The translations under genes were made by a program, and so were the position numbers. DNA of 64,000 nucleotides. Origin: Rhodohalobacter halophilus (GTDB lineage: Bacteria; Bacteroidota; Rhodothermia; Balneolales; Balneolaceae). Positions 1 through 3,413 of this stretch are shown in pieces (position 1 is the stretch's first letter; every line of letters starts with the position of its first letter). The notes beneath the pieces are model-generated. The model was not told the DNA's origin, ran no database searches, and was given only the letters and a program-made list of their open reading frames with translations. The DNA is taken from NCBI RefSeq assembly GCF_001715195.1, contig NZ_MDWE01000036.1, positions 1 through 64,000 on the forward strand, in the 5' to 3' direction.

Positions 1-78
1 GATTATCGTCAAACCGGAAATGACCGACTGATATTACTTGTAATCTTAGTATTTTTGATTACGACTATTTTTATCTAA
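1..78 (+). CDS. C-terminal end of a membrane protein (partial, 5' end outside window)
   Basis: Frame 1 is open from the window edge to a TAA at 76-78 and encodes 25 residues ending in a continuous hydrophobic stretch (LILLVILVFLITTIFI). That is what a C-terminal transmembrane helix looks like. The other two forward frames are closed by stops within the first 30 bases. The CHAT gene starts only 9 bases downstream, so the two are probably co-transcribed. The family cannot be identified from so short a piece. Existence as a gene end is an inference from the open frame, the hydrophobicity and the tight spacing. Confidence 0.5.
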   Translation, partial: DYRQTGNDRLILLVILVFLITTIFI

Positions 79-87
79 GCTCTTTTG

Positions 88-3000
88 ATGTTTAAAGTCT
101 CTCTGTTATTGCTCATTTTCTCTGTCTTTTCAGACTCAAGGACAGACTATATCCATCAGTTCCTGGACGAGCAAATTAATAGTGAGGTCAGCTCTGAAAC
201 CGTATGGGCTACGGGCACACTTTACTATTCAAGCCCGGATGAATATCAGGAAGTGATCCTTGATTACATTAAGGATGAACAAATAAAAAGTAATTTACAG
301 GGGAATACTGAACTAAAAGACTACATTCAGCAAATGAGTTTCCATCTTGAAGATGAACATTTGCTCCTTTCATATCTGCTGCTCGAAGAAGATATCGAAA
401 GACGTACAGAGATTTACGAGAGCTTCTATAACAACTACCCGGGTTTAGGTCTCAGGGAGTTAAATGATCTTGTTAAAGACGGAGAAAAATTAGACGAAAA
501 AAGCGTTGCCAATTCAACCATAGGTTTTGAACATTTCTTGATTTCTTTCCACGTGAGCAACAATAACGTTACGTCAGATGATTTTTTCAATCAGGTTAAA
601 GCTCTTTGGCAACAGACCGAAGGATCATCTGTTATCCCCACAGCGAGTAAAAGCTATCAGATTGCATCCATTCTAAAGGCATACTACGAAACCGGCGAAT
701 ATGGATCCATCAATAGACTATACAATGAGTTTCATCATCTCCATAACTTACCGCATTCAAAAATTAAATTGAACTTGTTGTGGGGTGCTGAATTTGCATT
801 ATATCGATTGGGATATGTGGATAAAAGCCTTGAAACACAGAGAAAATTTACCATCCCAATCAGTAGGTTCCTTGAACTCAACTCCACGTTGAACTCAATC
901 TTAGCTTCCCACGGAGGGTATCTTTATCAAATTGGGAAATATCAGGAAGCCAAAAACACATTTTTATCCATATTAGATCAGGCTGAAAATCTCCCTTTAT
1001 CATTTCAAGCCAGCTTATACAATAATTTAAGTCTTGTACTCTACAAAACCGGTGAATCCTCAAATTATATTGAAACACAATTAAAAGCCCTTGAAATCGC
1101 AGATGAACTTGAAAATCATGATTTCAAAAGTAGGATTTTAAGAAATCTTCACATTTTTTATGCGCAAAACAAAAATTGGAGATTGGCTACTGAATATATT
1201 GACGAAGCTGCAAATTTAGCATATAGAGTTGATAATAAAGACGAATTAATTTCAATCCACATATCAAAAGCAGATTTCACATATAATAATCTTAACGATA
1301 GTGAAGCAGCCTTTCGATATTTAGAGATAGCAAGTTCATTCGTTGATGACAACACGTCACCTAGATTTGAACTCAGAATTTTATTTCAAAGAGCTCAATT
1401 ATTAAAACGTGAAAACCGGTTTAATGAAAGTCTCAACGTTTTAAATGAAATAATTGCAATAACAGGTGGTCAATCGGATACTGTTAGATACTTAGAAGCA
1501 ATGATTCGCTTGGTGCAAATCAACCTGGAACTGGGAGATCCTCTCGAAGCAAGGCAACTTATGCGTGAGGTTCGAGCTCATGATATGTCTGATCTTGATT
1601 TTTCTGTTCTTATTTTGGCTCAAACCGTTCAAGCACAGATTGCCCAGCATTTTGGAGATCCCCTGGAAGCGGACCGGTTGTATTCAGAAGCAGCTGATTT
1701 AGTGTTTGAACGTTCACGAAATACCTCTGAAGCCGAATCCGGATATTGGACCGTCGAAGAAGATTATCTTTACCTGTTTGAAAAATATGCGGATTTTCTC
1801 CTGAGTCACAATCGCAAAGGAGATGCACTGGTCCTGTTTGACCGCATCAAGACGATTAACGATGCCTCACTGACCGATAATCCTTTGGTACGCTCTTCCC
1901 AATTAAGTGAAGAGGCACTGACTCGCATCAGAAACCTGACTCGGGAGATGGATAGCGTGAGAAGACGTATTCTTACCGCTTCCGACGACGAAAGACTTTC
2001 CCTTCAGAACAGGCTGGAGAGATTGTCTGCAGAGCGCCGATCACTCTCCTCAAAAGTGGATAATACACTTTCCGGAGATGTAAATATTGGCTCTGTACAG
2101 AGGCAGTTACGTCCGTCCGAAACACTCCTTCACATTACCGAAGTTGGACGAAATCTCTACTATGCAGAAGTTCAGAGAAACGACATCTCTATCAAAAAGT
2201 TGGAGATGAATGGAGAAACTCTCGAGCTTTTCGAGGGCGCATTAGACTCCATTCTTAAAGGCAGAACCGATCTCATGAAGTTTTATCAGATTGGGAAAAT
2301 GATTGGTATCGATAAGATTTCTGCAAATTCCCGATCCATCATCGTGATGCCTGACAGTTACTTCCATCAGCTTCCTGTCGATATCCTGCCAATCCGTGCG
2401 CCGGCCTCTTCCGTCAGTTACGGGTCTGCTGAATATGTGATTGAACATGCCGAAGTGAGAACGCTCAACAGCCTGCAGGACCTCACTACGCGCTACCGCG
2501 GTAATAACCACTCAATCGGGTTTTCAGGCTTTGGGGTTGAAGATTTCAATAATGAGAGGACATCCAGAAATTTGGTTTCTCTGCCAAAAGCACCGCAGGA
2601 AATTCTCTTGGTAAAGGAGCAGTTAAATCGCCTCAGTAACAACCGCTCATTTATCAATGCAACGGCTACGGCCGATGAGTTTCAGAAGAATGCCGGCCGG
2701 AGTAAGATTCTCCACATGGCAACCCACAGTGAAGTATCGGAAAGTGATCCGCTCTTCTCCACACTTCATTTCTACTCGGATGGAAACGAAGAGCAGGATC
2801 AGAGACTCAGTGGCCGTTTATTTGCCTATGAACTGTTTGAACTCAACCTTCAAAACGATTTAATCATGCTCAACTCGTGCGAATCGGGCGGTGATCGATT
2901 TCTACAGGGAAGCGGCGTGATGGGTATCAGCCGGGCACTGCGTTATGCAGGTGCCAAGAGTTTGGTTTTGAATTCCTGGTCGGTTAACGATCACTATGCG

Positions 3001-3255
3001 GCCGAATTTGCCGAAGAGTTTTACAGACATATCAACGATGGGAAAAGTAAGTCCAAAGCCCTTCAGCTTACGAAGGTGCACTTTATCAAAAACAAGAATG
3101 CCAACCCTCATTTTTGGGGCCCTTACATTCTGAATGGCGATCATCGGCCCCTAGTTCGAAATAACAACTGGTTTGCCGGAAGCTTACTGCTTGCCGCCAT
3201 TTTTCTCTCCGGACTTGTTTTTACGGGACGAAACAGAAAGAGATCAGCTGCATAA
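88..3255 (+). CDS. TPR-CHAT protein, membrane-anchored caspase-like protease
   Basis: 1055 residues from ATG 88; an in-frame TTG at 85 is a weaker alternative. A short hydrophobic N-terminus (FKVSLLLLIFSVF) is probably a signal peptide. Residues about 190-620 are helical repeats of TPR type, followed by a charged coiled segment near 610-660. The CHAT domain (caspase HetF associated with TPRs) occupies about 750-1020, with the expected dyad: His about 880 in HMATHSE and Cys about 931 in LNSCESG. A C-terminal hydrophobic helix (about 1030-1048) followed by RNRKR indicates a membrane anchor, with the bulk of the protein probably periplasmic. CHAT proteins are cysteine proteases often used in regulated proteolysis or cell-suicide systems; the substrate here is unknown. 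The preceding membrane-protein gene is a likely partner. Confidence 0.88.
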   Translation: MFKVSLLLLIFSVFSDSRTDYIHQFLDEQINSEVSSETVWATGTLYYSSPDEYQEVILDYIKDEQIKSNLQGNTELKDYIQQMSFHLEDEHLLLSYLLLEEDIERRTEIYESFYNNYPGLGLRELNDLVKDGEKLDEKSVANSTIGFEHFLISFHVSNNNVTSDDFFNQVKALWQQTEGSSVIPTASKSYQIASILKAYYETGEYGSINRLYNEFHHLHNLPHSKIKLNLLWGAEFALYRLGYVDKSLETQRKFTIPISRFLELNSTLNSILASHGGYLYQIGKYQEAKNTFLSILDQAENLPLSFQASLYNNLSLVLYKTGESSNYIETQLKALEIADELENHDFKSRILRNLHIFYAQNKNWRLATEYIDEAANLAYRVDNKDELISIHISKADFTYNNLNDSEAAFRYLEIASSFVDDNTSPRFELRILFQRAQLLKRENRFNESLNVLNEIIAITGGQSDTVRYLEAMIRLVQINLELGDPLEARQLMREVRAHDMSDLDFSVLILAQTVQAQIAQHFGDPLEADRLYSEAADLVFERSRNTSEAESGYWTVEEDYLYLFEKYADFLLSHNRKGDALVLFDRIKTINDASLTDNPLVRSSQLSEEALTRIRNLTREMDSVRRRILTASDDERLSLQNRLERLSAERRSLSSKVDNTLSGDVNIGSVQRQLRPSETLLHITEVGRNLYYAEVQRNDISIKKLEMNGETLELFEGALDSILKGRTDLMKFYQIGKMIGIDKISANSRSIIVMPDSYFHQLPVDILPIRAPASSVSYGSAEYVIEHAEVRTLNSLQDLTTRYRGNNHSIGFSGFGVEDFNNERTSRNLVSLPKAPQEILLVKEQLNRLSNNRSFINATATADEFQKNAGRSKILHMATHSEVSESDPLFSTLHFYSDGNEEQDQRLSGRLFAYELFELNLQNDLIMLNSCESGGDRFLQGSGVMGISRALRYAGAKSLVLNSWSVNDHYAAEFAEEFYRHINDGKSKSKALQLTKVHFIKNKNANPHFWGPYILNGDHRPLVRNNNWFAGSLLLAAIFLSGLVFTGRNRKRSAA

Positions 3256-3320: not shown

Positions 3321-3329
3321 TTGTTATTG

Positions 3330-3413
3330 TGCCCCGGAATGGAGTCGAACCATCACGGCCGTTAGGCCACACGCCCCTCAAGCGTGCGCGTCTACCAATT
3401 CCGCCACCGGGGC
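3330..3413 (-). tRNA. tRNA-Leu (anticodon GAG)
   Basis: The minus strand folds as a class II tRNA. The acceptor arms GCCCCGG and CCGGGGC pair, the D arm reads GGCGGAATTGGTAGACGC, the anticodon stem CACGC/GCGTG encloses TTGAGGG (anticodon GAG), a long variable arm follows, and the T arm contains GGTTCGACTCC. Length is 84 bases including discriminator A; CCA is not encoded. It would read CUC and CUU leucine codons. Confidence 0.97.

Follow-up and report, generated by a model that had tools for sequence, protein, structure and literature searches.

The 64,000-nucleotide stretch of Rhodohalobacter halophilus DNA analysed here (the window; contig NZ_MDWE01000036.1, positions 1 to 64,000) opens with a gene for a TPR-CHAT protease that belongs to a four-part locus conserved in Balneolales. 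The locus comprises a divergently transcribed extracytoplasmic function (ECF) sigma factor gene, a tandem array of tiny lipoprotein genes, the CHAT protease gene and a membrane anti-sigma-like gene, and its features suggest an envelope signalling switch that is driven by a protease and includes a component not named before. Ordinary envelope signalling, outside CRISPR, would gain a link to a protease of caspase/separase type. The lipoprotein partner is easily missed because its genes are only about 60–80 codons long and the available sequence ends less than 1.5 kb from the CHAT gene at 41 of 94 loci.

The arrangement was examined at 94 loci from 91 genomes, 76 of the loci in the family Balneolaceae (window included) and 18 in other families of the order; the 41 loci with short upstream sequence and five with less than 1.2 kb downstream were left out of the counts. 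A tiny lipoprotein gene lies upstream of CHAT on the same strand at all 53 loci with at least 1.5 kb of upstream sequence (52 by a lipobox rule, which was built without the profile yet written after the family had been viewed, and 51 by a hidden Markov model (HMM), a count that is partly circular as its 24 seeds come from the same loci). A divergent ECF sigma gene is present at 50 of these 53 loci, and a convergent anti-sigma-like gene encoding a transmembrane (TM) segment plus TPRs follows CHAT at 83 of the 89 loci with at least 1.2 kb downstream. The lipobox rule picks out 96 genes in the 1.3 kb upstream of the 53 CHAT genes (52 loci), and none on the opposite strand of the same 1.3 kb or in the 1.3 kb downstream. 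The sigma gene was not found at G011, G017 and G097 even with a lax cut-off, and the anti-sigma gene was not found beside CHAT at G000 (the window's own genome), G050 (C105), G069, G073, G091 and G094. At the 18 loci from other families, neither NagZ nor DUF6992 flank genes were found in the fetched flank and the core was kept wherever the contig reached, except for sigma at G097 and anti-sigma at G094; mere synteny is therefore rejected as the cause of the adjacency. Paralogues included, CHAT matches occur in 83 of 92 family genomes and number 103 at E ≤ 1e-20 across 128 genomes of the order, and the lipoprotein profile matches 78 of the 92 family genomes at E ≤ 0.01, some of these matches being weak and inside other genes. 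Named protein relatives of CHAT (30 records) are mostly from Balneolaceae, namely Fodinibius, Aliifodinibius, Gracilimonas and Balneola. A preliminary description of the window had expected a dedicated partner, its gene cut by the window edge, and had guessed at a sigma factor among them. Related genomes bear this out, with the lipoprotein, sigma and anti-sigma-like genes, half of them beyond the window, conserved order-wide together with the catalytic dyad.

Several genomes depart from the standard layout. G083 has the sigma and lipoprotein genes and a CHAT gene running off the contig, and in G047 and G051 a lipoprotein is found with no CHAT gene seen, the contig ending in or just after the array. 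G088 retains sigma and one lipoprotein gene (L282 7067–7591), with no CHAT gene and a 62-residue fragment that weakly matches the anti-sigma protein (15.9 bits); in this single case the loss of CHAT appears to have gone along with decay of the anti-sigma gene. In the window's own genome the anti-sigma-like gene, apparently parted from CHAT by a rearrangement, lies at a contig end (C56:7597–8331; L111), among what by eye are histidine-utilisation-like genes. A tRNA-Leu (GAG) gene on the minus strand at window positions 3329–3413 sits directly 3' of CHAT, where relatives have the anti-sigma gene, and is a possible breakpoint of that rearrangement.

Other CHAT copies lack the normal N-terminal part or carry in-frame stops (G001, G003, G038 and G067; L163, L053, L049 and L165), and lipoprotein matches persist at these loci, partially in G001. 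Two CHAT orthologues stand in tandem at L062 and L063 (G046 and G061), the G046 lipoprotein preceding the first.

The first base of the window is a contig edge (G000:C30:1, the left end of C30 in an assembly of 92 contigs), and the reading frame that enters across it is the end of the last lipoprotein copy (Table 1). In G042, whose CHAT protein is 83% identical, the gene directly before CHAT encodes a 65-residue lipoprotein ending DMDPIIVKPEMTD. The real upstream gene in the window ends at base 31, 56 bases ahead of the ATG at 88. The preliminary description had instead placed there a gene ending in a TM helix and stopping 9 bases before CHAT; this frame-1 reading (bases 1–78, DYRQTGN...TIFI*) is rejected because the coding frame in relatives is another one, and the frame-1 reading runs through in G042 but is soon cut short by a stop in G044. 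On contig C57 of the same assembly an ECF sigma gene (372–923) is divergent to the array, and C57:1–102, reverse strand, encodes MKTIMNSYKTLISKLSLTAMVLFLAAGCATVTDA, the start of the first lipoprotein copy. Both contig edges fall within the stretch matching the near-identical part of the array, so the assembly very likely broke at this repeat, leaving the C57–C30 gap unbridged, and the genome very likely has at least two lipoprotein copies. Contigs end inside the near-identical array in several genomes, e.g. G000, G014, G036, G044 and G091. Tandem tRNAs and known RNAs were rejected as causes of the breaks, no tRNA being present in 12 loci and no Rfam match in seven.

Table 1. Coordinates of features at the left end of the window
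Feature	Position	Strand	Basis
TPR-CHAT protease gene, 1055 residues from ATG	88..3255	+	Open reading frame intact; alternative start TTG at 85; orthologues order-wide
Hydrophobic segment at N-terminus (signal peptide or anchor), residues 1–17	88..138	+	Sequence; segment in 71/75 orthologues whose reading frame does not run off that end
TPR superhelix, residues ~225–545	760..1722	+	Pfam TPR matches; helix pairs in AlphaFold2 model
CHAT protease domain, residues 746–1018	2323..3141	+	Pfam PF12770, 144.8 bits; fold match to Csx29 and separase
Catalytic His880	2725..2727	+	H in 92/94 loci, 2 gapped
Catalytic Cys931	2878..2880	+	C in 93/94 loci, 1 gapped
C-terminal TM anchor, residues ~1027–1045	3166..3222	+	Sequence; model helix 1027–1054; TM-like segment in 92/93 orthologues
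Last codons and stop of final tiny-lipoprotein array copy, IIVKPEMTD*	2..31	+	Frame 2; matches lipoprotein C-terminus upstream of CHAT in G042 (L033) and G044

Judged from its sequence, the CHAT protein is a membrane-anchored TPR-CHAT protease for which proteolysis is predicted. Its score against PF12770, a CHAT peptidase family of clan CD, lies well above the cut-off of 24, and the dyad that the preliminary description had called intact is kept at all loci with gaps as the only departures and no substitution at either position. The hydrophobic N-terminal segment and C-terminal anchor described there likewise recur in nearly all orthologues. The AlphaFold2 model has a mean predicted local confidence (pLDDT) of 86 and a predicted template-modelling score of 0.79, with a disordered loop (residues 933–943, pLDDT below 50) directly after Cys931. 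Foldseek and VIA-align both rank Csx29 first for this model (Foldseek E 1.7e-14 to 8eey_B; Z 26.4 over 551 residues to 7y9x_B, with a root-mean-square deviation (rmsd) of 8.7). Further fold matches are to separase (5fc2_B; Z 25.2, rmsd 3.4, 299 residues aligned) and DdvA (8rw5; Z 21.6, rmsd 12.7, 557 aligned). By sequence, the CHAT domain gave no credible match to a solved structure; the 60 profile matches listed of 102 were to TPR or other repeat proteins.

The divergent gene was scored in two examples against the ECF sigma-70 model TIGR02937, reaching 54.6 bits in L036 (cut-off 42.9) and 40.2, just under, in L033. A TM-like segment is present in all 70 complete anti-sigma-like sequences, and the AlphaFold2 model of this protein starts with three helices, passes through a TM helix and ends in a TPR domain. 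Against an NCBIfam anti-sigma model with a cut-off of 200 the protein scores weakly, at 15.9 and 25.2 bits. Right after the TM helix, most sequences in an alignment of 40 (39 of the 70 complete sequences and the window genome's own) carry the motif P-[IVL]-x-x-[ILV]-E-[LY]-[DE]-x-x-R-[SGDN]. The Arg of this motif (Arg111 in the protein of the window's genome) is present in all 40, and in all 41 genomes whose juxtamembrane stretches and lipoprotein tails were compared by eye. Residues 93–118, which hold the motif, have pLDDT below 50, and we infer that an invariant Arg in a disordered juxtamembrane linker is a candidate protease site, which it resembles. A possible likeness of the lipoprotein tail to this juxtamembrane stretch was examined by eye. 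The window's genome also holds a paralogous sigma and TPR anti-sigma-like pair (L112 5356–6775, G000:C25) with a juxtamembrane R-S and no CHAT gene or array nearby.

The lipoprotein array varies in size, with one copy at 19 of the 53 loci, two at 21, three at nine, four at three and six at one. Mature coding parts within an array are 97% identical (median of 30 arrays; lowest mean 71%) compared with 70.5% (median) for the best lipoprotein match in another genome, which indicates that arrays are homogenised, or their copies newly made, within each genome. The two G042 copies (L033 7804–8282) have different signal peptides, but from the lipobox region onward their DNA is almost the same (0.993 across the mature part), so homogenisation seems to act on the mature part of the lipoprotein. 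Between genomes the ratio of non-synonymous to synonymous differences (pN/pS) is 0.31 summed over 14 pairs, chosen among similar pairs with genomes shared between them and including one pair (G109/G126) at 0.98; the value shows purifying selection on the reading frame. The mature lipoprotein has 39–64 residues and a net charge of -2 to -12, mostly begins CA[S/G/T][V/I][T/S]D and ends in a hydrophobic stretch plus xP. The tail is conserved and the middle is not. [K/R]P lies within the last 20 residues of 44 of 51 lipoproteins, against a mean of 4.2 and a maximum of 10 in 1000 shuffling trials. Among 24 members scanned for a known family there was one Pfam match at E 0.01 and scattered weak NCBIfam matches, none of them convincing. 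Three of the 24 match the Lpp/OprI alanine-zipper model NF040598 at E ≤ 0.01 (best 0.0012), with two scored members at 14.8 and 14.1 bits, below its cut-off of 43.

A sigma-type promoter motif, GTAAC-N17-CTC[C/T]T, is found on the array strand in 36 of 52 sigma-to-array regions versus 0.6% of Markov controls, the spacing being 17 in 52 of 54 occurrences and 16 in two. The motif also stands upstream of 44 of 83 anti-sigma genes. Across 985 kb of loci, 57 sites precede the array or CHAT, 53 precede anti-sigma genes and 13 lie elsewhere. Sites in the window's genome include one before the array (C57) and one at C67:298–325, just before a NagZ-like gene whose counterpart in G042 neighbours the anti-sigma gene; C67 starts close to this promoter, which matches the anti-sigma neighbourhood. 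Genome-wide, TGTAACAW-N15-CTCTT occurs 11, 15, 5 and 5 times in G000, G042, G041 and G003, and a reversed-pattern control 0, 1, 1 and 0 times. The candidate surface/cyclic AMP regulon set by this promoter includes, by position, a DUF5939 protein with a guanylate/adenylate cyclase domain in G000 (Pfam match also in G041, look-alikes by eye in G042 and G003). It further includes a T2SSE (PilT-like) ATPase beside a cyclic-nucleotide-binding protein gene, and pilin-like genes in a G042 type IV pilus cluster (T2SSE, T2SSF, PilO and secretin); the pilus, cyclase and cyclic-nucleotide-binding candidates lie at L277 (G042:C1:915000–931000), L276 and L278. Further sites stand ahead of a PAS histidine kinase, a response-regulator-like gene, a ParA-type ATPase, a DUF5916 protein and unknown proteins, and some have no convincing gene behind them. 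Some of the listed sites may have arisen by chance, and the motif could also be recognised by other sigma paralogues of the genome.

The model that best explains our data, to which we give an even chance, casts CHAT as site-1 protease for the anti-sigma protein; the lipoprotein tails would serve it as dedicated ligands and might be pseudosubstrates that it cannot cleave. The anti-sigma protein would span the membrane, its N-terminal helical domain predicted to be cytoplasmic and its TPR domain periplasmic, and would hold the ECF sigma factor. The protease would be anchored in the inner membrane with its enzyme part in the periplasm and, once switched on, would cut the anti-sigma protein in the disordered juxtamembrane stretch at or near the invariant Arg (P-I-x-x-I-E-L-D-Y-Y-R-S). 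A site-2 protease of the M50 family and cytoplasmic proteases would then release sigma, which may drive the array-CHAT operon and the anti-sigma gene. Three M50 matches are present in the window's genome (best 219.9 bits), and such matches occur in all 14 control genomes, so they are weak evidence. The order-wide locus, the shared promoter, the invariant Arg in its disordered stretch, the [K/R]P tails, the pN/pS value and the fold match to Csx29 and separase speak for the model, as does the apparent joint decay in G088. Lipid-anchored acidic tails of 39–64 residues with the conserved end hydrophobic-x-[K/R]-P would reach CHAT, more likely as an uncleavable pseudosubstrate that restrains it than as an activator. 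Separase, whose fold the CHAT domain shares, prefers Arg and is inhibited by securin acting as a pseudosubstrate. An extended form of the model, which we think improbable, would make the lipoprotein a lipid-tethered 'securin': a separase-like protease would be restrained in the periplasm by uncleavable, outer-membrane-anchored pseudosubstrate tails from a self-homogenising array, and failed sorting or presentation of the tails would free the protease to cut the anti-sigma protein at the invariant Arg and start an ECF programme with type IV pilus and cyclic-nucleotide genes.

A number of observations weigh against the site-1 protease model. Craspases cut between A and S, L and D, and M and K in the part of the source available (PMC11106740), so that a preference of CHAT enzymes for Arg cannot be assumed, and the invariant Arg could have a different function. 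[K/R]P is absent from seven of the 51 lipoprotein tails, the lipoprotein persists in G088 in the absence of CHAT, and the anti-sigma gene of the window's own genome is no longer beside CHAT. Foldseek returned no anti-sigma fold among the 50 matches listed for the anti-sigma model, these being TPR or other helical proteins, a result that excludes nothing. The promoter motif is directed toward sigma at one of 52 loci and lies upstream of CHAT itself at only three of 74, the latter being expected if CHAT belongs to the array operon. Outside Balneolales, sigma/anti-sigma/CHAT cassettes occur that have no lipoprotein.

The same tails could instead be activating ligands. Here failed outer-membrane sorting or envelope disturbance would let tails accumulate at the inner membrane, where they would bind CHAT or its TPRs and switch the enzyme on, much as misfolded porin ends switch on DegS. 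The conserved C-terminal motif fits such a role, the disordered loop by Cys931 suggests an allosterically switched enzyme, and tandem copies would raise the signal. The window's genome also has an Lsp gene and a LolA match just over the cut-off, as many bacteria do. However, [K/R]-P, a poor protease bond, fits an inhibitor equally well as the end of the motif, and the location of the tails is itself presumed; we regard activation as unlikely.

A comparably doubtful alternative treats the lipoproteins as abundant sigma output with no contact with the protease, a small structural outer-membrane lipoprotein amplified for dosage. Homogenisation and the range of one to six copies fit dosage selection, the array sits behind the shared promoter, the weak resemblance of three members to Lpp/OprI is in keeping with such a function, and so is the lipoprotein that G088 keeps without CHAT. 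Set against this, a lipoprotein gene precedes CHAT at every readable locus across several families, and it is the tail that is conserved although the middle is not.

Still less probable, in our judgement, is that CHAT is an effector, for example a killing or remodelling protease, expressed under the sigma/anti-sigma pair without the anti-sigma protein as its substrate. CHAT does lie behind the array and a sigma-type promoter on the same strand. Its hydrophobic N-terminal segment and C-terminal TM segment would nevertheless put it beside the anti-sigma protein, and sigma/anti-sigma/CHAT neighbourhoods recur in distant Bacteroidota. PADLOC, moreover, gave no family at E ≤ 1 for the CHAT protein and two sigma proteins, an anti-sigma protein and a lipoprotein scored as examples gave no match above 16 bits. 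The least favoured of these alternatives, to which we attach little weight, makes the lipoproteins substrates whose tails CHAT clips to free pheromone-like signal peptides. The precursors are suitably tiny, acidic and multi-copy with a conserved end, but Pro follows the conserved basic residue of the tail and the anti-sigma protein offers a better-looking site. An abortive system, which the preliminary description had entertained, and a defence role are rejected given that PADLOC returned no strong match.

By analogy, the site-1 protease model finds its closest known counterpart in the Csx29-Csx30-CASP-sigma system. In the accessible part of its report, Csx29 cuts Csx30, an inhibitor of an ECF sigma factor (PMC10028731), and as far as that text goes both systems pair a protease of TPR-CHAT fold with an ECF sigma factor and its inhibitor or inhibitor candidate. 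The window protease differs in having a hydrophobic segment at each end; the candidate for the inhibitor here is a TPR protein that spans the membrane, and a lipoprotein array is present. No CRISPR effector was noticed in the neighbourhoods listed here, in which no model search for one, Cas7-11/gRAMP included, was made. The Balneolales locus may also be compared with regulated intramembrane proteolysis by DegS/RseP-RseA-sigmaE. As there, a membrane-spanning anti-sigma candidate and an ECF sigma factor would be combined with a site-1 protease presumed to be periplasmic, and the genome encodes an M50 protease. Whereas DegS is an HtrA serine protease, the site-1 protease here would be a cysteine protease of caspase/separase type and its ligand a lipoprotein tail. 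Separase likewise places a CHAT-type protease domain behind a helical-repeat region, but is eukaryotic, soluble and part of another circuit. Myxococcus DdvA/DdvS (PDB 8rw5, 8rot; PMC4374960) also has a TPR/CHAT-like fold in an ECF sigma circuit; in the available part of that source the fold belongs to the transmembrane anti-sigma factor itself, whereas protease and anti-sigma candidate are separate genes here. No description of the locus was found in a literature search on CHAT proteases with sigma/anti-sigma pairs or tandem lipoproteins, a search that mostly left out subscription papers and preprints.

Beyond the order, full-length-scale CHAT matches among 394 genomes of the phylum are confined to Balneolales, the best elsewhere scoring 235 bits, with two CHAT candidates scored per genome. 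At nine of 14 loci inspected outside the order a sigma-like and/or TM-bearing anti-sigma-like gene nevertheless lies beside CHAT, several of these labels resting on weak HMM scores (anti-sigma 15–46 bits, sigma 16–51) or on size and sequence alone. Sigma, anti-sigma and CHAT genes are consecutive in G292, G387, G262, G253, G319, G330 and G321; in G234 a sigma/anti-sigma pair is convergent with CHAT, and G282 has the anti-sigma-like gene only. The lipobox rule found one small lipoprotein across these nine loci (G282), not adjoining CHAT. The basic circuit can thus do without the lipoprotein. A protease-sigma circuit of this kind may extend beyond Balneolales, whose own addition the lipoprotein array seems to be. 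Should the model hold, cleavage of anti-sigma proteins by CHAT proteases could be a more general feature of Bacteroidota.

The window's genome encodes a second CHAT protein (G000:C54; L001) of about 1046 residues, which ends after the CHAT domain and is accompanied by a convergent gene that by eye is peptidase-like. Paralogues of this type are found in many relatives, and in G009 and G035 two CHAT genes lie close together.

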